Virus record (IMG/VR): IMGVR_UViG_3300012354_000004
Coordinates: 1-43,506 of that record
DNA length: 43,506 nucleotides
Origin: a virus
Reading direction: 5' to 3' (one strand)
A program made the position numbers and the translations under genes. Positions 1 to 43,506 of the stretch are shown one piece after another; positions within the stretch are counted from its first letter, which is position 1; each line of letters starts with the position of its first letter. The notes under the pieces are model-generated. The model was not told where the DNA came from. It searched no databases and was given only the letters and a program-made list of their open reading frames with translations.

Positions 1-82
1 GGCCGTGATGTTGGACATCGGCGGTTTTGCTCTTTCGTCTATGGCTGATCATGCACGCACCAATGGTGACGCGCAGGCAGCC
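1..82. repeat. Terminal direct repeat, left copy (circular overlap)
   Basis: These 82 bases are identical to 43425-43506. The gene that begins at 43222 runs in frame through the right copy and continues in frame from base 5 to a stop at 820. The repeat is therefore best read as the assembly overlap of a circular or circularly permuted molecule of 43,424 bp, not as a biological terminal repeat. Confidence 0.93.
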
Positions 83-820
83 AGGAAAGCAGATAAGACT
101 GGCAAGTTTCTCATTGGCATCGTGATCTTGACATTGGCTTTAATCACTGTTGGATTGCTTTATCCTCCTGCTAAGGGATACACAGATGGAGCTGAGAAAG
201 TCTTAATCTTGGTCCGGGTCGTGATGACCGTAGTCTATGGCCATGTGATCCACTCACTCAGACGGCAATCCGCAACGCTAGCCATTCACCCTGTACAAGT
301 ACCTGTACAGGGTGTACAGATTGAGCAGATTGACGAACTAAAAGGGCAGATTGCAGAGTTAGTAAACAGTGTTTCTCAAGTACATCTGTCCATGTCGAAT
401 CTTGCTCATTCTGTACAGATCAACGAGCAATCTGGACAAACTTGTACAGAAATATATACACATGTACAGGCGTTTAAGATGAAAATAGACAGTGTACATA
501 CTCCTGTACATGTTCTAAATTTACTCAATCAGACCGTAGAAGATTGCGAGCAGGCAACCAATGAAATACCCATTGAAGAGCAGATAAGCAGTGATGTTAC
601 ACAAGTTGATGAAAGCACACCAGAAGCAGGTATAGCTGTTGTTTATCCCTTTGTGCCTGGTATCTCTGAGGAGGTTGTAAAGCAGATTATTGACTTGCAT
701 TTAGAGGGTGTGGCATGGTCTGCAGTTGGTACCCAGCTCTCGAAAAACTACAGCCGTATTGTGAAGCCTGTACGTGACGCATATACACAAGCGAACGGTA
801 GCATAGACACGGATAAATAG
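1..820 (+). CDS. Membrane protein with C-terminal DNA-binding-like domain (3' part; starts at 43222)
   Basis: This is residues 69-340 of a 340-residue protein whose start lies at 43222 across the circular junction. Residues about 36-56, 61-83, 104-125 and 136-155 are hydrophobic, giving about four membrane spans. A polar, partly coiled-coil linker follows (about 165-285). The last 50 residues (IIDLHLEG...YSRIVKPVRD) resemble the C-terminus of the FtsK-like ATPase encoded just upstream (YQRIIKPVCD). The gene is the last of the 40864-820 operon and is followed by a terminator at 940. The linker DNA holds eight TGTACA words. I infer a membrane partner of the ATPase that also contacts DNA. No named family is recognised. 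Confidence 0.85.
   Translation, partial: AVMLDIGGFALSSMADHARTNGDAQAARKADKTGKFLIGIVILTLALITVGLLYPPAKGYTDGAEKVLILVRVVMTVVYGHVIHSLRRQSATLAIHPVQVPVQGVQIEQIDELKGQIAELVNSVSQVHLSMSNLAHSVQINEQSGQTCTEIYTHVQAFKMKIDSVHTPVHVLNLLNQTVEDCEQATNEIPIEEQISSDVTQVDESTPEAGIAVVYPFVPGISEEVVKQIIDLHLEGVAWSAVGTQLSKNYSRIVKPVRDAYTQANGSIDTDK
292..510. repeat. Array of eight TGTACA palindromes inside the coding sequence
   Basis: TGTACA occurs at 292, 304, 313, 412, 443, 463, 493 and 505. Seven copies share a reading frame (Val-Gln/His codons) and the one at 443 is in another. Three more lie in the noncoding DNA after the gene (886, 900, 919). A given hexamer is expected about once in 4 kb. The array covers the linker between the membrane part and the C-terminal DNA-binding-like domain. 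It is a candidate protein-binding array. Confidence 0.75.
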
Positions 821-882: not shown

Positions 883-908
883 CGATGTACATGTGTCTAT
901 GTACATCG
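883..908. promoter_or_regulatory. Inverted repeat made of two TGTACA sites
   Basis: CGATGTACAT at 883-892 and ATGTACATCG at 899-908 form a perfect 10-bp inverted repeat around a 6-base loop. Each arm contains one TGTACA, and a further copy lies at 919-924. It lies between the stop at 820 and the terminator at 940. It is probably a binding site for the factor that reads the array at 292-510, though it could also act as an RNA hairpin. Confidence 0.55.
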
Positions 909-939
909 TTGGAAAAGATGTACAGAAAAGAGTTTCTCA

Positions 940-975
940 GTGAGGAAGTATAAAAGCTTCCTCACTTTTTATTTT
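940..975 (+). terminator. Rho-independent terminator of the FtsK-like operon
   Basis: GTGAGGAAG (940-948) pairs perfectly with CTTCCTCAC (957-965) around an 8-base loop. The run TTTTTATTTT follows at 966-975. It ends the plus-strand operon and overlaps the last codon of the convergent minus-strand gene at 974. Confidence 0.9.
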
Positions 976-35976: not shown

Positions 35977-37446
35977 TTACATCTCCTCAATCAAACTATA
36001 TTTGCTACCTTGCCTGCCTTTGACTTCTTCTACAACGCCGTCGCGGGCAAGGCTGGAAAGGTACACTTTCAAATCTTTGCTTTCCTTGCGTAAGTACCTC
36101 GCTATGTCGCGAGCTGAAGGCGTACGGTTGTTGCGGTCTGCTAGATGCTTCATCGTTTCGATAATGCGCTCTTCCATCGTCTGTTGTTGCTCTTTGCCGG
36201 GTGTATTTACCTGCGCATAAAACTGATGCAAGCTGTAACGCCATGATTCCGCGACTTCCTGGGCCAGCGCCCAATGGTGCAATGAAATGGTATTTTCACC
36301 AGATACAGAGGCTATCAGCGTGGCTACACGCATGGCCTTTGTTGAGAGTCTGTCATAACTGCCGTCTAAGTCTTCATTCGGGCGGCCTACTATCATGGCT
36401 TTTAGTGCAGACCTGTAGCGTTTCCAGGCTTCATACGCCACGTCAGAGACGCGAATGCAGGTTTCTTTGCGCTCTTCTAGAACGGTTGTGATATGACGCC
36501 CGGTAGGCTTATCTTTTTCATCCTTCTCTGCTTCTATATCGATACGTGGGCTACCTAACCGCTCATGCCAATGACGTAATGCCTGGGCAAGAGAGCCCGG
36601 GACTGGCAACTTTCCTAATTTAAAGGGCTCGTCTATGTACGTATCGGGCGGTGGTGTCACGAAGATGAATCGAGCCCAGAATCCATCGGACCAAAATTCA
36701 CTGCCACGCTTCGCGTTGTCTCGCACACTCGAAATGGTCATATTCCCGATCATCGATAAGTAGGGAGCAATGATCGCTTCACTTGAGCGTGAAATGGTTG
36801 TGTTGCGGTACTTATCTGGTGAACCATCGAACGTCAATAGCAAGTCGGCGTAGCTGGCCATCGTGCTATTTTGTTTCAGCATCCCTTTCACGAATTTCCC
36901 AAATTCGTCATTAATCCATCCAAGTTGACCAGGGACAGCCAGGCGTAACTTCCATTCTTCCTGCTCAAGATAGGGCAGCGAACCATAATCTTTCGGTACC
37001 CACCCGGCCATATCTGACATCAGTTTCTCGGGTGTAGTTCTATCCGCACCTAACATCCAATCCAGACCAGCGGCTTTTAAGACTTTACTACCTACCCTGG
37101 CAGTGGTTGTTTTCGCGTACAGGCTCGTCCTGGCTGCCAGGGCAATATAGAGCGGGGTATATTGTTGCTCTACAAAATCAGCATAGATACGCCTGCCTGC
37201 TATTGTCGAGAGCACCCACCAGAAACATGCATCGTGAAAACCTTCGTAGCCTTCAGGGCTGAGCAAACGAGAATACGCTTTGTACTCTTCCCTGAGTGGC
37301 AATACGCCGCTTGTGAAGCCAGCAGGGAATGCAATAGGCCCGGGCAAGGGGGGCATGTCTATGTCTCTTACAGAAGTTGTAGCAGGCGTGTCATGCTCTG
37401 TTGGTGTCGTGCCCAGGCTTTCATTTCTAATCGCATAGAGTACCAT
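35977..37446 (-). CDS. DUF3987-like replication protein with C-terminal winged-helix-like domain
   Basis: A protein of 489 residues. The core (about 50-400) resembles DUF3987-type phage and plasmid proteins (FHDACFWWVLSTIAGRRIYA, ARTSLYAKTTTARVGSKVL, GQLGWINDEFGKFVKGML, DGFWARFIFVTPPP), thought to be primase-helicase partners. Residues 425-489 (ERIIETMKHLADRNNRTPSA, RDIARYLRKESKDLKVYLSS) are a separate domain that recurs in the regulator at 38596. It lies directly upstream of the methyltransferase and primase. A replication role is likely, but the enzymatic activity is not certain. Confidence 0.75.
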   Translation of the reverse strand: MVLYAIRNESLGTTPTEHDTPATTSVRDIDMPPLPGPIAFPAGFTSGVLPLREEYKAYSRLLSPEGYEGFHDACFWWVLSTIAGRRIYADFVEQQYTPLYIALAARTSLYAKTTTARVGSKVLKAAGLDWMLGADRTTPEKLMSDMAGWVPKDYGSLPYLEQEEWKLRLAVPGQLGWINDEFGKFVKGMLKQNSTMASYADLLLTFDGSPDKYRNTTISRSSEAIIAPYLSMIGNMTISSVRDNAKRGSEFWSDGFWARFIFVTPPPDTYIDEPFKLGKLPVPGSLAQALRHWHERLGSPRIDIEAEKDEKDKPTGRHITTVLEERKETCIRVSDVAYEAWKRYRSALKAMIVGRPNEDLDGSYDRLSTKAMRVATLIASVSGENTISLHHWALAQEVAESWRYSLHQFYAQVNTPGKEQQQTMEERIIETMKHLADRNNRTPSARDIARYLRKESKDLKVYLSSLARDGVVEEVKGRQGSKYSLIEEM

Positions 37447-38222: not shown

Positions 38223-38489
38223 CTTGTACGGACAACAGTACTATTTGTTATTTGCACGTCAGCTGTCAATGTGTCACAGTTTCGAGTTGTCACACCTACA
38301 TAGAATCTATGACAACTCAAAACAATTATCATATCTATATAATAATATATATAATAATATAATAATATATAATATTATACCTCTTTTGTCTTGTACGGAC
38401 AACAGTATGTATATCCCTTGCCCTGGAATGAGTTGTCATATACTTCACTTCCCTGTGACAACTCAAAACTGTGACACATTGACAACTCA
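38223..38489. other. Candidate replication origin in a 636-base gene-free region
   Basis: No gene is seen from 37960 to 38595. The centre, 38321-38380, is 56 of 60 A/T. Around it are an 18-bp exact direct repeat (38223-38240 and 38390-38407, starting CTTGTACGGACA), a 31-bp inverted repeat with one mismatch (38264-38294 and 38454-38484), and five TGACAACTC elements (38284, 38310, 38429, 38456, 38480; two inverted). Iteron-like repeats beside an unwinding-prone AT stretch, next to the replication operon, suggest ori. Confidence 0.65.
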
Positions 38490-38595: not shown

Positions 38596-39042
38596 ATGAA
38601 TGAACAAATTGAGGAACAAGAGTATCTGTCTTTAAGTGAAGCTACTCAAGCCATTGGATGGACACGTGCAACTGTGGAGATATGGGTAAAGGAGTTAGGA
38701 ATAGAAAAACATACGTTCCTGCGTAACAAAAAGACCTATCTTAAAGCCTGCGATGTAGCACAACTTAAAGAAATTAAGGAGAAGCCTTGGAAGGCTGGGG
38801 AGAAAAAAGAAACGCCGTCTGAATCGTCTGAACCGTCTGAGAGAATTATAACTGAGAGAATTATACAGGTCATGAAACGGTTAGTCAGCAAGGGAAATAC
38901 TACTCCCTCAGCTAGAGATATTGCAAAGTATATGCACGAGCACAGTGAAGATATTAAACCATATCTTGTTTCCCTTGCCAGGGATGGAAGTATTCAATCA
39001 TTCGATGGTAGACAAGCACCGAGATACATCTTAAAAGAATGA
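38596..39042 (+). CDS. Mosaic DNA-binding regulator
   Basis: A protein of 148 residues preceded by GTGGAGAT. Residues 8-65 form a MerR/excisionase-like domain akin to the protein at 33179-33436. After a linker, residues 85-148 (ERIIQVMKRLVSKGNTTPSA, RDIAKYMHEHSEDIKPYLVS, LARDG, GRQ) match the last 65 residues of the DUF3987-like protein. It thus joins the DNA-binding ends of two other phage proteins. It probably binds the origin/control region upstream and may regulate replication or the terminase gene. Confidence 0.75.
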   Translation: MNEQIEEQEYLSLSEATQAIGWTRATVEIWVKELGIEKHTFLRNKKTYLKACDVAQLKEIKEKPWKAGEKKETPSESSEPSERIITERIIQVMKRLVSKGNTTPSARDIAKYMHEHSEDIKPYLVSLARDGSIQSFDGRQAPRYILKE

Positions 39043-39106: not shown

Positions 39107-39571
39107 ATGCCAGACTGGGAACTGATTAAAAAAGAGTATGAGCAAGGTTTATCGTTGCGTGTACTCTCGACAAAATATGGAGCAAGCAAATCTACAATCC
39201 ATGAGCACGCCGTAGACGGACACTGGACACGGACAGCGAACGGACAACTATCGGACAACGGACAGACACCCCTTGCCCCTGCTAGCACTACCGTAGAACT
39301 GGCCCGAGGCATGATAGGGCAGCTCGCTACTATCGCAAAGGTGCCTCTCGACTTGAAAGAGCATAATCTTTTTGCACAGGCGCTGTCGCAATATAACAAA
39401 ATCATGGTCACCGCTCCTGCTACGGAACAAAATCTACCCAATAGTATCGATTGGAGTATCTTTACACAAGATGAGCTTTCAACAATCCAACCCATTTTTG
39501 CTCGGGCAGAGGAGCGTCGCCGTATAGAGCAAGGCGAAACAACTATCCCGCAATTGAGGAAACAGGCATGA
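39107..39571 (+). CDS. Probable terminase small subunit
   Basis: A protein of 154 residues. The N-terminus, WELIKKEYEQGLSLRVLSTK followed by YGASKSTIHEHAVDGHWTR, is the helix-turn-helix opening of many small terminases (and of some phage DNA-binding proteins). The middle is helical (VELARGMIGQLATIAKVPLD, NLFAQALSQYNKIM), fitting an oligomer core. It would recognise the pac or cos site and load the large subunit. It lies about 8.5 kb from terL around the circle, which is unusual. A plain regulator is the alternative. Confidence 0.65.
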   Translation: MPDWELIKKEYEQGLSLRVLSTKYGASKSTIHEHAVDGHWTRTANGQLSDNGQTPLAPASTTVELARGMIGQLATIAKVPLDLKEHNLFAQALSQYNKIMVTAPATEQNLPNSIDWSIFTQDELSTIQPIFARAEERRRIEQGETTIPQLRKQA

Positions 39572-40395: not shown

Positions 40396-40440
40396 GCACG
40401 GTATCTCTCTCTCGCCCCTGAGATACCGTGCTTTTCTTTG
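40396..40440 (+). terminator. Strong rho-independent terminator
   Basis: GCACGGTATCTC (40396-40407) pairs perfectly with GAGATACCGTGC (40420-40431), followed by TTTTCTTTG. It ends the 38596-40092 operon, including the CRISPR-like array. No gene is seen between 40093 and 40553. Confidence 0.9.
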
Positions 40441-40479
40441 TGCTTTTTTCGTTTTCTTTCGTCGCTCCCTTGACACGAC

Positions 40480-40509
40480 TTGACAATACTGCACTTTTAC
40501 TGCTATCCT
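40480..40509 (+). promoter_or_regulatory. Promoter of the 40554 operon
   Basis: TTGACA (40480-40485), an 18-base spacer and TATCCT (40504-40509) with an extended TGC in front. A second TTGACA lies ten bases upstream (40470-40475). It follows the terminator at 40396 and precedes the ribosome site at 40539. Confidence 0.6.
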
Positions 40510-40553
40510 TCCTAATGCGCCACAAAAATGACGGTATTGGAGGGAGAGCGTTT

Positions 40554-40763
40554 TTGAGTTCAGATGAGTTTATTTCAGAGAAAGAGGCAGCCCAGATTCT
40601 TGGTGTCAATCCTCGAACAGTGAGTAGATGGGCTGATCAGGGCAGACTTACCAGGTACAAACAATTTGGATTGAGAGTGAGGTATAAGCGGAGCGAGATA
40701 GAGAATTTCGCAAAGCCGATCCCTGATGTGGATCTCGATGTTGAAGATGACAAAACGGAGTAA
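40554..40763 (+). CDS. Excisionase/MerR-type regulator with TTG start
   Basis: A protein of 69 residues. The TTG at 40554 is chosen because GGAGGGAG lies nine bases upstream; ATG codons farther upstream have no ribosome site and would precede the promoter. Residues 7-55 (EKEAAQILGVNPRTVSRWAD, LTRYKQFGLRVRYKRSEIEN) form a HTH_17 fold. It heads the FtsK-like module and may control it. Confidence 0.7.
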   Translation: MSSDEFISEKEAAQILGVNPRTVSRWADQGRLTRYKQFGLRVRYKRSEIENFAKPIPDVDLDVEDDKTE

Positions 40764-40863: not shown

Positions 40864-41178
40864 ATGGCAGACCTGATTCCCTTCGGTGGCATCACCGAAT
40901 ATCGTTCTCCACAACGGCCTGTAGAGAATCCTGGCGAGGTGCTCGGTATTCACATCTCTGTTCATCCAGACGCGCTCCATGCCATTTCTGAGAAGATCGC
41001 ACGATGGTTTCATGGGCGCGATGAAGTGGATGTTGTCGATGTAGGCGTTTCCGACAAGGTTGGAATTGGCTATATCATCATGGAATGGGACGAGTACGAC
41101 ATTGACCCTCTCTTCCTGGCGATCTTGCGGGATGAAGAGGCGATTGCAGATTATGCCGTCTATGAGCGGGAGGTATAA
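40864..41178 (+). CDS. Unknown protein, first of the membrane/ATPase module
   Basis: A protein of 104 residues preceded by GGAAAGG. It is acidic with alternating strands (DVVDVGVSDKVGIGYIIMEW, DEYDIDPLFLAILRDEEAIA). No family is recognised. It lies two bases before the membrane-protein gene at 41181 and is presumably co-expressed. Confidence 0.6.
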   Translation: MADLIPFGGITEYRSPQRPVENPGEVLGIHISVHPDALHAISEKIARWFHGRDEVDVVDVGVSDKVGIGYIIMEWDEYDIDPLFLAILRDEEAIADYAVYEREV

Positions 41179-41180
41179 CA

Positions 41181-41693
41181 ATGGCAAGCTTACGATCTGG
41201 CATGAACAGCATGGCTGCTAGTCGCGGCAACGTCCCACTGCTGAAGTTGGTGTTAGGCGTCGTATTGCTCGGCTTTTTCGTGTTGGCGCTCATGATGGAT
41301 GTACAGACCAGCGAAGCCTTCATCTTGAATGGAGGCAAAGTTGCGGTAACATCACTCAACTGGAACATCCTACGTCAACCCCTCGATCTGGCACAAGGCA
41401 ATCTGGATATCAATATGGCCAAGGCTGTTATGTGGGGATGGGGATGCCTGCTCATCTACCTGGTGTGTGTGGTCGGAGAAACCACCATACAAGGCCGACT
41501 TGGAGGCATCTTCAAGACTGGCGCGTTTCTGATTGTTGCGTTTGACTTCTGGACCAACATGAACTATGGCACGCTGCCAAGCGGATGGGGTGGTCAAGTG
41601 GGTTTCGCGGTGATCACCAGTTTTATCGTTGCTTTCTTTGGTGTGTTGGGATTGAACTTAATTTTTAGCTCAATCACTGAAATGACCCGATAG
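41181..41693 (+). CDS. Membrane protein with about four spans
   Basis: A protein of 170 residues preceded by GGGAGGT. Hydrophobic spans lie near residues 20-40 (LLKLVLGVVLLGFFVLALMM), 84-101 (VMWGWGCLLIYLVCVVGE), 112-125 (TGAFLIVAFDFW) and 142-163 (FAVITSFIVAFFGVLGLNLI). It sits directly before the FtsK-like ATPase and may form part of the same membrane complex. There is no known family. Confidence 0.7.
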   Translation: MASLRSGMNSMAASRGNVPLLKLVLGVVLLGFFVLALMMDVQTSEAFILNGGKVAVTSLNWNILRQPLDLAQGNLDINMAKAVMWGWGCLLIYLVCVVGETTIQGRLGGIFKTGAFLIVAFDFWTNMNYGTLPSGWGGQVGFAVITSFIVAFFGVLGLNLIFSSITEMTR

Positions 41694-41704
41694 GAGACGG
41701 AAAG

Positions 41705-43207
41705 ATGGATGATCAGCAGCTAGAAATCAAGCGATATCCGATGAAGCAGCAAGCGACCTTTGCGGGCGGTGCAGCCGTTACGATGGCGTTAGTAGACGCA
41801 ATAGCGCATCTGGGGCCAACTGGCTTGCTGATCAGTGGGCTCGCGGGCTATGTCGCATGGAAGCATGGGCCGGAGCTCTATGAGCTCGCTGCCCGAGAGG
41901 TGAGAGGGATAATCCCCTCTCACTCTTCAGAAACCAGCCAGCAGAAGAGTGAGCAAAGTCATGGCCGTAGTTTCTGGGACCGAGCAATGGGACGTTATCC
42001 TGACCCTGGTGTGCATGCGCAAGATGATGCGCATGGCGAAGAGTGGCGTGATGATTGGTACGACCAGGACGACGAGGTTCCTGGCATCGATCAATCCATG
42101 TTCACCTTCTCTCAGCTGCTCGCCTCTGGTTTCAAGCCAACGCTGCATAAAATCTTTTTAGGCCGCCTGGCCGATGGGACCGACGTGTTTGTCGAGGCGA
42201 AAGACCTCTGCCATATTGCGCTCGCTGGCTCAACTGGCCAGGGGAAAACATCCCTCATGCGTCTGATTATGGCTCAGTTGTGCTCTATCCGGGTCAGCGT
42301 TGTGCTGCTCAATCCGCACTACATGGTCTACGATCGCGATCACAATGAGGACTGGACGCCGTTCACGCCCTACTTAGCGCGCAATCCGCTCGATTACGTC
42401 AAGGTGGATAATATCGCGTTCATTCTTAAGTGGATTATCGAAAAGACGCTGGCCCGGCGCATGGAACTAGCACGCGCTGGTAAATCGGTCGGCAAGCCGT
42501 ACTTTATCGTGATTGATGAGTTACCGGCCATTGTCGCAGAGCGCAAGGAATGCGCCGACTATGTCGCGAAACTGCTACGTGAGGGCCGCAAGTATGGCAT
42601 TTACTTGATCGTTGCATCGCAAGACTTCCTGGTAAAAACCACGGGTATGGATGCGCAAGGGGGTGCGGTGCGCAAATGCTTCCGTACTGCCTGCTATGTT
42701 GGCGGTGATTCGACCACGGCCAATGTGCTGCTAGAGAAACAGGCAACGCCCATTCCAGAAACGGACCTGGGCAAAGGCATGATGATGCTACGCTGCTCGG
42801 CAACGACAAAGGCGGTACTAGCAAGCGTGCCGTACTGCGACAATGAAGCGCTCTATCAACTGCTCGGACCTTCGACATTCACCGTTCACCATTCACCAGA
42901 AACGGCCCTACCTGAGCTCAGTGAAACATTCACCGATGACGTGAAAGTGAATACAGAGAATGCAGTGAATGAGCCTGTGAAGCCAGTGAATGCCCCGGTG
43001 AATGCTGGTGAATATTCACCGACCACTGAGAATACTTCACCGGTATTCACGCCTGCAGAAGAGGTACAAGTTTTGCTTGCATATGCTGAAATGCTTAAGG
43101 CTGAGAAGCCAGTGACACGAACAGGTATTCGTGATCTCCTGCAATGGGACAACAAACAATACCAACGGATTATCAAGCCGGTGTGTGATAAACACCATAT
43201 TGGATAG
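41705..43207 (+). CDS. FtsK/TraB-like DNA translocase ATPase
   Basis: A protein of 500 residues preceded by GGAGACGG. Two short hydrophobic stretches (about 18-53) suggest a membrane anchor. The ATPase spans about 150-385: Walker A GSTGQGKT (175-182), Walker B FIVIDE (267-272), then LLREGRKYGIYLIVASQDFL. Residues 391-448 are a disordered linker, and 452-500 are a helix-turn-helix-like domain (RTGIRDLLQWDNKQYQRIIK). This order (membrane, motor, DNA-reading domain) is that of FtsK and of actinobacterial TraB, which moves double-stranded plasmid DNA between cells. The substrate here is not known. The linker DNA carries a hexamer array. Confidence 0.85.
   Translation: MDDQQLEIKRYPMKQQATFAGGAAVTMALVDAIAHLGPTGLLISGLAGYVAWKHGPELYELAAREVRGIIPSHSSETSQQKSEQSHGRSFWDRAMGRYPDPGVHAQDDAHGEEWRDDWYDQDDEVPGIDQSMFTFSQLLASGFKPTLHKIFLGRLADGTDVFVEAKDLCHIALAGSTGQGKTSLMRLIMAQLCSIRVSVVLLNPHYMVYDRDHNEDWTPFTPYLARNPLDYVKVDNIAFILKWIIEKTLARRMELARAGKSVGKPYFIVIDELPAIVAERKECADYVAKLLREGRKYGIYLIVASQDFLVKTTGMDAQGGAVRKCFRTACYVGGDSTTANVLLEKQATPIPETDLGKGMMMLRCSATTKAVLASVPYCDNEALYQLLGPSTFTVHHSPETALPELSETFTDDVKVNTENAVNEPVKPVNAPVNAGEYSPTTENTSPVFTPAEEVQVLLAYAEMLKAEKPVTRTGIRDLLQWDNKQYQRIIKPVCDKHHIG
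42877..43050. repeat. Array of ten ATTCAC/GTGAAT hexamers in the ATPase linker
   Basis: ATTCAC occurs at 42877, 42891, 42928, 43014 and 43045, and its complement GTGAAT at 42947, 42965, 42986, 42998 and 43008. That is ten in 174 bases; chance predicts about 0.1. Copies fall in all three reading frames, so the protein sequence does not explain them. GGTGAATATTCACC (43007-43020) is a full 14-bp palindrome. This points to a DNA-level binding array. Confidence 0.8.
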
Positions 43208-43221
43208 AGAGGATAAGTCGT

Positions 43222-43506
43222 ATGGCAGCAATCAGCAATCAATCCTGGCGTGATCGTGCACTTGAACGCGCCGAGATTATCACCGATGCATGGGAAGTCA
43301 CAAAAAGCTATGCCGGGCGGCTCGCTGAATGGATTCTCTTCCTGTGCATGATTTTTTGTATTATCGAAATCCTGCCAGGCGTCACTTTTCCGACCTGGGC
43401 CAGCAATGTTGTATTAGGTGTGCAGGCCGTGATGTTGGACATCGGCGGTTTTGCTCTTTCGTCTATGGCTGATCATGCACGCACCAATGGTGACGCGCAG
43501 GCAGCC
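43222..43506 (+). CDS. Membrane protein with C-terminal DNA-binding-like domain (5' part; continues at 1)
   Basis: Start ATG 43222 with GAGAGGATAAG upstream, 14 bases after the ATPase stop. This part encodes residues 1-95, including the first two membrane spans (WILFLCMIFCIIEIL and the stretch after NVVLGVQAV). The frame continues from base 5 of the window to the stop at 820, for a total of 340 residues. See the entry at 1-820. Confidence 0.85.
   Translation, partial: MAAISNQSWRDRALERAEIITDAWEVTKSYAGRLAEWILFLCMIFCIIEILPGVTFPTWASNVVLGVQAVMLDIGGFALSSMADHARTNGDAQAA
43425..43506. repeat. Terminal direct repeat, right copy (circular overlap)
   Basis: Identical to bases 1-82. Joining the copies gives one uninterrupted gene, so the molecule is circular or circularly permuted. 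Confidence 0.93.

Follow-up and report, generated by a model that had tools for sequence, protein, structure and literature searches.

A HerA/FtsK-type ATPase and its membrane partner, each with a site array inside its own gene, as a candidate DNA-handling module of a temperate soil phage

Two neighbouring genes of a tailed phage, coding for a pump-like ATPase and a membrane protein, each contain an array of short DNA sites that is selected as DNA and lies at or beside the sequence coding for the C-terminal helical domain of the encoded protein. It is proposed here, with a probability of about one half, that these genes and the small membrane protein gene preceding them (the trio) encode a HerA/FtsK-type pump and its membrane partner, which would use separate cis-sites and handle the phage DNA at the membrane. 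This reading is drawn from the placement of the ATPase in the HerA/FtsK superfamily and the trio order kept in a relative, L151; from arrays, differing in motif, that exceed synonymous recoding in both window genes as well as in the linker of the L151 membrane protein; from TGTACA sites found past the stop codon (886-924); and from orthologous C-terminal heads that do not align while the motors are 46-49% identical. The initial annotation, made from the letters of the same DNA, had suggested a pump-like ATPase and a membrane partner with a DNA-level array each, and this part of it is supported and recurs in L151.

The window, i.e., the whole analysed stretch of 43,506 nucleotides (IMG/VR record IMGVR_UViG_3300012354_000004), begins and ends with the same 82 bases (43425-43506 = 1-82), and thus the record closes to a circle of 43,424 bp. 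A tyrosine integrase, large terminase, portal, protease, capsid, tape measure, and endolysin were recognised among its proteins (PHROG), and this gene content identifies the window as a circular temperate tailed phage from soil. The gaps of 11 and 14 bp between the trio genes and the terminator-like hairpin that follows suggest one operon (Table 1), to which the 104-aa protein directly upstream probably also belongs, judged by spacing only. The membrane protein had been predicted to run from 43222 across the junction to 820, and a 340-aa reading frame is indeed found over the junction. According to hydropathy, it contains four hydrophobic segments and a long linker. Pfam, NCBIfam, and PHROG searches recognised no family for it; its likeness to SpdB-type spread proteins is architectural only.

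Table 1. Coordinates of the trio, its site arrays and predicted C-terminal domains in the window, and of the orthologous genes in L151
Feature	Position	Strand	Basis or remark
104-aa protein	40864-41178	+	directly upstream of the trio
Small membrane protein, 170 aa, three hydrophobic segments	41181-41693	+	hydropathy; first gene of the trio
HerA/FtsK-superfamily P-loop ATPase, 500 aa	41705-43207	+	Pfam DUF87, PHROG FtsK/SpoIIIE-like
ATTCAC(C) site array in the ATPase linker	42877-43050	.	10 ATTCAC sites and five TTCAC-only sites
ATPase C-terminal three-helix (HTH-like) domain	43052-43192	+	residues 450-496, AlphaFold2
Membrane protein, first part, residues 1-95	43222-43506	+	continues through the circle junction
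Membrane protein, remainder to stop	1-820	+	hydrophobic segments to about residue 153, linker, HTH-like end
TGTACA site array in the membrane-protein linker	292-510	.	8 copies, two frames
Membrane protein C-terminal three-helix (HTH-like) region	668-796	+	AlphaFold2, low confidence
Three further TGTACA, 3' of the membrane-protein stop	883-924	.	sites at 886, 900, 919
Intrinsic-terminator-like hairpin, operon end	939-966	+	
L151 small membrane protein orthologue	L151:3-452		28% identity, tblastn E 3e-6
L151 ATPase orthologue	L151:471-1889		40% identity overall, 46-49% over the motor
L151 membrane protein orthologue	L151:1985-3040		28% identity, tblastn E 1e-14

A repeat array ahead of each C-terminal end had been noticed in the letters, and both arrays hold up against recoding. 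In the linker of the ATPase, ATTCAC/GTGAAT sites occur in both orientations and all three frames, with closely spaced direct copies at 42877-42897 and a palindrome, GGTGAATATTCACC, at 43007-43020. Of the 8 TGTACA copies in the membrane-protein linker, one is in the other frame, and two of the sites past the stop codon fall in a 26-bp inverted repeat (CGATGTACAT-N6-ATGTACATCG). At 284-297, a single ATTCACC, the motif of the ATPase array (at 284), directly adjoins the first TGTACA. Each gene was recoded synonymously 20,000 times, the protein being kept and codons drawn from the phage's own usage. The 10 ATTCAC were reached in none of these recodings (mean 1.6, maximum 7), nor were the 8 TGTACA (mean 0.8, maximum 6). 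Since the motifs had been picked after inspection, a motif-blind test was added, in which the most copies of any single 6-mer inside 220 bp were compared with synonymous recodings. The ATPase and the membrane protein are the only ones to stand out among the 20 genes or gene segments of the window that were tested, with maxima of 8 and 10 compared with 3-4 (0/400 recodings each). The use of several reading frames and the continuation of TGTACA past the stop codon indicate that selection acts on DNA. This also bears on the idea that the arrays arose by chance or from protein-level repeats, such as VQ/VN dipeptides in low-complexity linkers. Most TGTACA copies do code for VQ or VH in one frame; however, recoding to the same protein misses the observed counts in 20,000/20,000 trials and sites also lie in other frames, both orientations, and noncoding DNA, so that this origin is refuted for the window arrays and is hardly credible. 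An RNA element was rejected as well, the Rfam search giving no match.

The ATPase carries Walker A (GSTGQGKTS) and Walker B (FIVIDE) motifs and scores 32.7 bits against Pfam DUF87, the HerA central domain (cut-off 23.2), and E 3e-12 against the PHROG FtsK/SpoIIIE-like family; by these profile matches it is a member of the HerA/FtsK superfamily with a DUF87-type P-loop. Against Pfam FtsK_SpoIIIE (PF01580), it reaches 18.7 bits, under the cut-off of 24, and hence does not score as a TraB-type motor. Its N-terminal hydrophobic stretch falls under the hydropathy cut-off of 1.6 in the window, and that of the L151 orthologue passes (1.87); taken on its own, the latter protein gives 14.0 bits against DUF87, under the cut-off. 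The C-terminal ends of the ATPase and the membrane protein look HTH-like in predicted models. The structural check proposed with the initial annotation was run with AlphaFold2 and gave three helices for each. Its confidence is fair at the ATPase end alone, with a pLDDT of about 78 confined to residues 450-496 and no wing seen, compared with about 63 (low) at the membrane-protein end. Fold searches with these models returned no significant structural neighbour, which was to be expected of models that are poor outside the ATPase C-terminus, and database searches with the ATPase C-terminal domain gave no match. The two ends had been read as one common DNA-reading domain on the basis of the strings YQRIIKPVCD (ATPase) and YSRIVKPVRD (membrane protein). 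Both strings are present; however, a common domain was not confirmed. The likeness covers about 15 residues, with E 0.72 in an all-against-all comparison of 31 window proteins, and the 60-aa C-termini align with a score of 45 compared with a maximum of 44 in 2,000 shuffles.

The search for the trio in other elements, suggested earlier, yielded one further copy, and thus two copies in all (window and L151) were found in the viral and genome contig scans. L151, a terminal piece of a soil phage contig of 67.6 kb, was found by a scan aimed at the ATPase motor core; another match of that scan, L152, was discarded as a false match within a large phage protein. The viral and genome contig scans aimed at the trio gave no match, one of them yielding only distant cyanobacterial relatives. 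L151 keeps the order small TM protein, ATPase, TM protein, and contains neither an ATTCAC nor a TGTACA array. Instead, the linker of its membrane protein has a cluster of six GTCAAC in 220 bp just ahead of the HTH-like protein end; in the motif-blind test 1/6,000 recodings was as extreme, whereas GTCAAC taken as one 6-mer among about 2,080 gene-wide is not significant (Poisson 3e-4). A GAAAC cluster in the same linker was dropped as weak (97/10,000 recodings). The end of this membrane protein resembles MarR models weakly, under cut-offs (MarR_2, E 0.0017). Within the L151 ATPase coding sequence, the cluster test is negative (111/400 recodings), and four GATGGAC lie over the ATPase stop codon and in the spacer behind it (1/1,000 first-order shuffles), a probable array at the 3' end of the gene. 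The position of the membrane-protein array is conserved between the two phages. For the ATPase array, conservation is limited to its placement at the 3' end of the gene. Absence of both arrays from relatives had been named as one outcome that would refute the initial annotation; in this one relative, the membrane-linker array is significant and the ATPase 3'-end array only probable. The orthologous C-termini align no better than shuffled sequences, unlike the similar motors, and pairs from the same phage are somewhat more alike (0/2,000 shuffles reach the score in the window and 52/2,000 in L151). These two cases are compatible with heads that are swapped as modules, perhaps together.

A 33.7-kb record from another metagenome, which shows 100% identity to the window in each protein tested, beginning with the portal and extending up to the gene at 39568, breaks off on either side of the trio region. 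Neither the ATPase nor the trio was seen in the recorded parts of sister phages found by their capsid (67-86% capsid identity). One of these, G036 (capsid 81%), has a different HerA ATPase and no clear array there; this DUF87/HerA protein (L148, 6862-8319) lies upstream of the terminase and combines a stretch resembling a coiled coil with an end that resembles a winged helix. In another, G043 (capsid 71%), an array of dozens of 18-bp units starts just past the integrase (L145, 2040 to about 2960). The 10-bp constant parts TGGCTCGCTC and TGGTACTCTC alternate in it, each followed by 8 variable bases, and most frames are largely open. In the window itself, a C-terminal LexA-like winged helix is common to the DUF3987 protein (35977-37446, minus strand) and a 148-aa protein (38596-39042, plus strand); with 51% identity over 67 aa (E 4e-18), the duplication of this DNA-binding end is clear. 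Between genes, at 38270-38380, an AT-rich stretch with a cluster of TGACAACT-type repeats and ATAATA repeats is perhaps an operator or origin.

The layout had been regarded as having no described case. This is corrected by pIJ101 SpdA2 (PMC4170104), the clt of pWTY27 (PMC3583192), and the lambda ori (PMC3349717), and binding sites within genes, as in pIJ101 spdA2/sps, pWTY27 clt, and lambda ori, are already precedented. The closest comparison is the TraB/clt and Spd module of Streptomyces plasmids (pSVH1, pIJ101, pWTY27). TraB reads clt repeats via a C-terminal winged helix, and the clt of pWTY27 overlaps the FtsK-like traA gene at its 3' end (PMC3583192). The membrane protein SpdB2 binds DNA and interacts with TraB (PMC4170104). 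Common to these elements and the trio are an FtsK/HerA-superfamily pump with a C-terminal helix-turn-helix-type head (predicted here), a cluster of short repeats that lies at the 3' end of the pump gene or overlaps it, and an adjoining DNA-binding membrane protein (putative here), with sites that vary among elements. However, the trio is found on a tailed temperate phage, its ATPase scores as HerA DUF87 and not as FtsK_SpoIIIE, the main array of the window lies inside a linker ahead of the HTH-coding part, and a second array is present in the partner. pIJ101, a TraB plasmid, also provides a DNA-binding protein with a palindromic target in its own coding region, as SpdA2 binds a palindrome within its own gene (PMC4170104); SpdA2 has 135 aa, whereas in the trio the sites, 8-11 hexamers, are carried by the gene of a 340-aa membrane protein. 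The lambda O protein likewise recognises the iterons of its own phage gene, the ori lying within gene O (PMC3349717), but it is a replication initiator, while the trio genes code for a pump and a membrane protein. No replication initiator domain was recognised in the ATPase or the membrane protein, and primase, DUF3987, and helicase genes are located elsewhere in the window.

Small HerA-like ATPases of cyanobacterial plasmids and contigs (pDU1, L010, L011) show 22-29% identity to the trio ATPase, a helical-looking C-terminal end, and a common motif around Q-D..V.T.G....GG.VRKCFR. They differ in that no membrane partner was recognised and in-gene arrays occur in other small genes. In Calothrix and Plectonema contigs, GTTACA sites (L010, 152-936; L011, 900-1671) are found at a promoter and also within a small coiled-coil gene. 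The operon of this gene diverges from the HerA-like ATPase gene, and the sites in coding sequence are more numerous than recoding yields. A Calothrix plasmid (L007, 6475-6816, minus strand) contains an in-gene GTCAAC array of 7 copies (0/300 recodings), which yields a GQPGQP peptide as a by-product and adjoins a small gene annotated as hypothetical. These cases hint that mobile elements may commonly possess site arrays within genes.

The main rival of the pump reading is membrane tethering or stability without transfer, in which the arrays would hold an episome, replicating form, or prophage as centromere-like or replication-anchoring sites. It owes this standing to pIJ101, where SpdA2 and the sps site inside its gene act on segregational stability but not on transfer (PMC4170104). 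Anchoring of replicating DNA at the membrane by phi29 p1/p16.7 (PMC4974454), the lambda iterons within an initiator gene (PMC3349717), and the location of the TGTACA array in an AT-richer kilobase (43% GC) are also in line with it. However, passive holding does not require a HerA/FtsK motor, and the integrase means that the phage need not persist as a plasmid. Neither a ParA ATPase nor ParB was found among the window proteins scanned, for which reason ParABS partition was rejected. Tethering without transfer is thus regarded as possible, though not probable.

It is improbable that the arrays are operators for another regulator controlling the operon, with the C-termini reading something else, even though HTH regulators flank the operon (an HTH_17 protein at 40428-40763 and a Cro/C1-type protein at 1551-1811) and TGTACA also occurs singly, with 25 copies in the window compared with 10.3 expected. 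Eight to ten sites deep in coding sequence before an HTH-like end would be an unusual operator layout, and the membrane-protein layout recurs in L151 with another motif. An exclusion or defence module, in which a HerA-type ATPase and a membrane effector recognise incoming phage DNA, appears very unlikely. Membrane partners are common in exclusion systems, and PADLOC mad8 and HerA models match the motor (E 2e-12); these matches are limited to the generic P-loop core, self-sites on the phage genome would turn such a module on itself, and no nuclease or toxin partner was recognised beside the trio.

In the pump-plus-sites reading, the trio would be a DNA-handling machine built like the Streptomyces TraB/clt and Spd module from unrelated or distantly related parts. 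The ATPase may form a ring-shaped pump for double-stranded DNA at the membrane and load at the ATTCAC array within its gene, which its HTH-like head would grip. The C-terminal head of the membrane protein would hold its TGTACA sites and bring the same DNA to the membrane, where the small membrane protein might serve as an anchor or part of a pore. Most likely, the machine would move or partition the circular DNA of the phage at the membrane after excision, with a neighbouring cell as a possible destination. Heads and arrays, which differ completely between the two phages while the rest is kept, would behave as exchangeable specificity cassettes. A stronger version, which we consider doubtful, is that temperate phages possess a conjugation-like transfer of double-stranded DNA, in which the pump and the membrane partner would each possess a swappable cassette of recognition head and matching in-gene target array, every phage thereby moving its own DNA only. 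The two known trio copies constitute natural pairs for head and array exchange. If the proposal is correct, then a target placed inside the gene of its recogniser would allow a single recombination event to swap specificity and address together, and phages would own a packaging-independent, address-specific route to move or position their DNA at the membrane.
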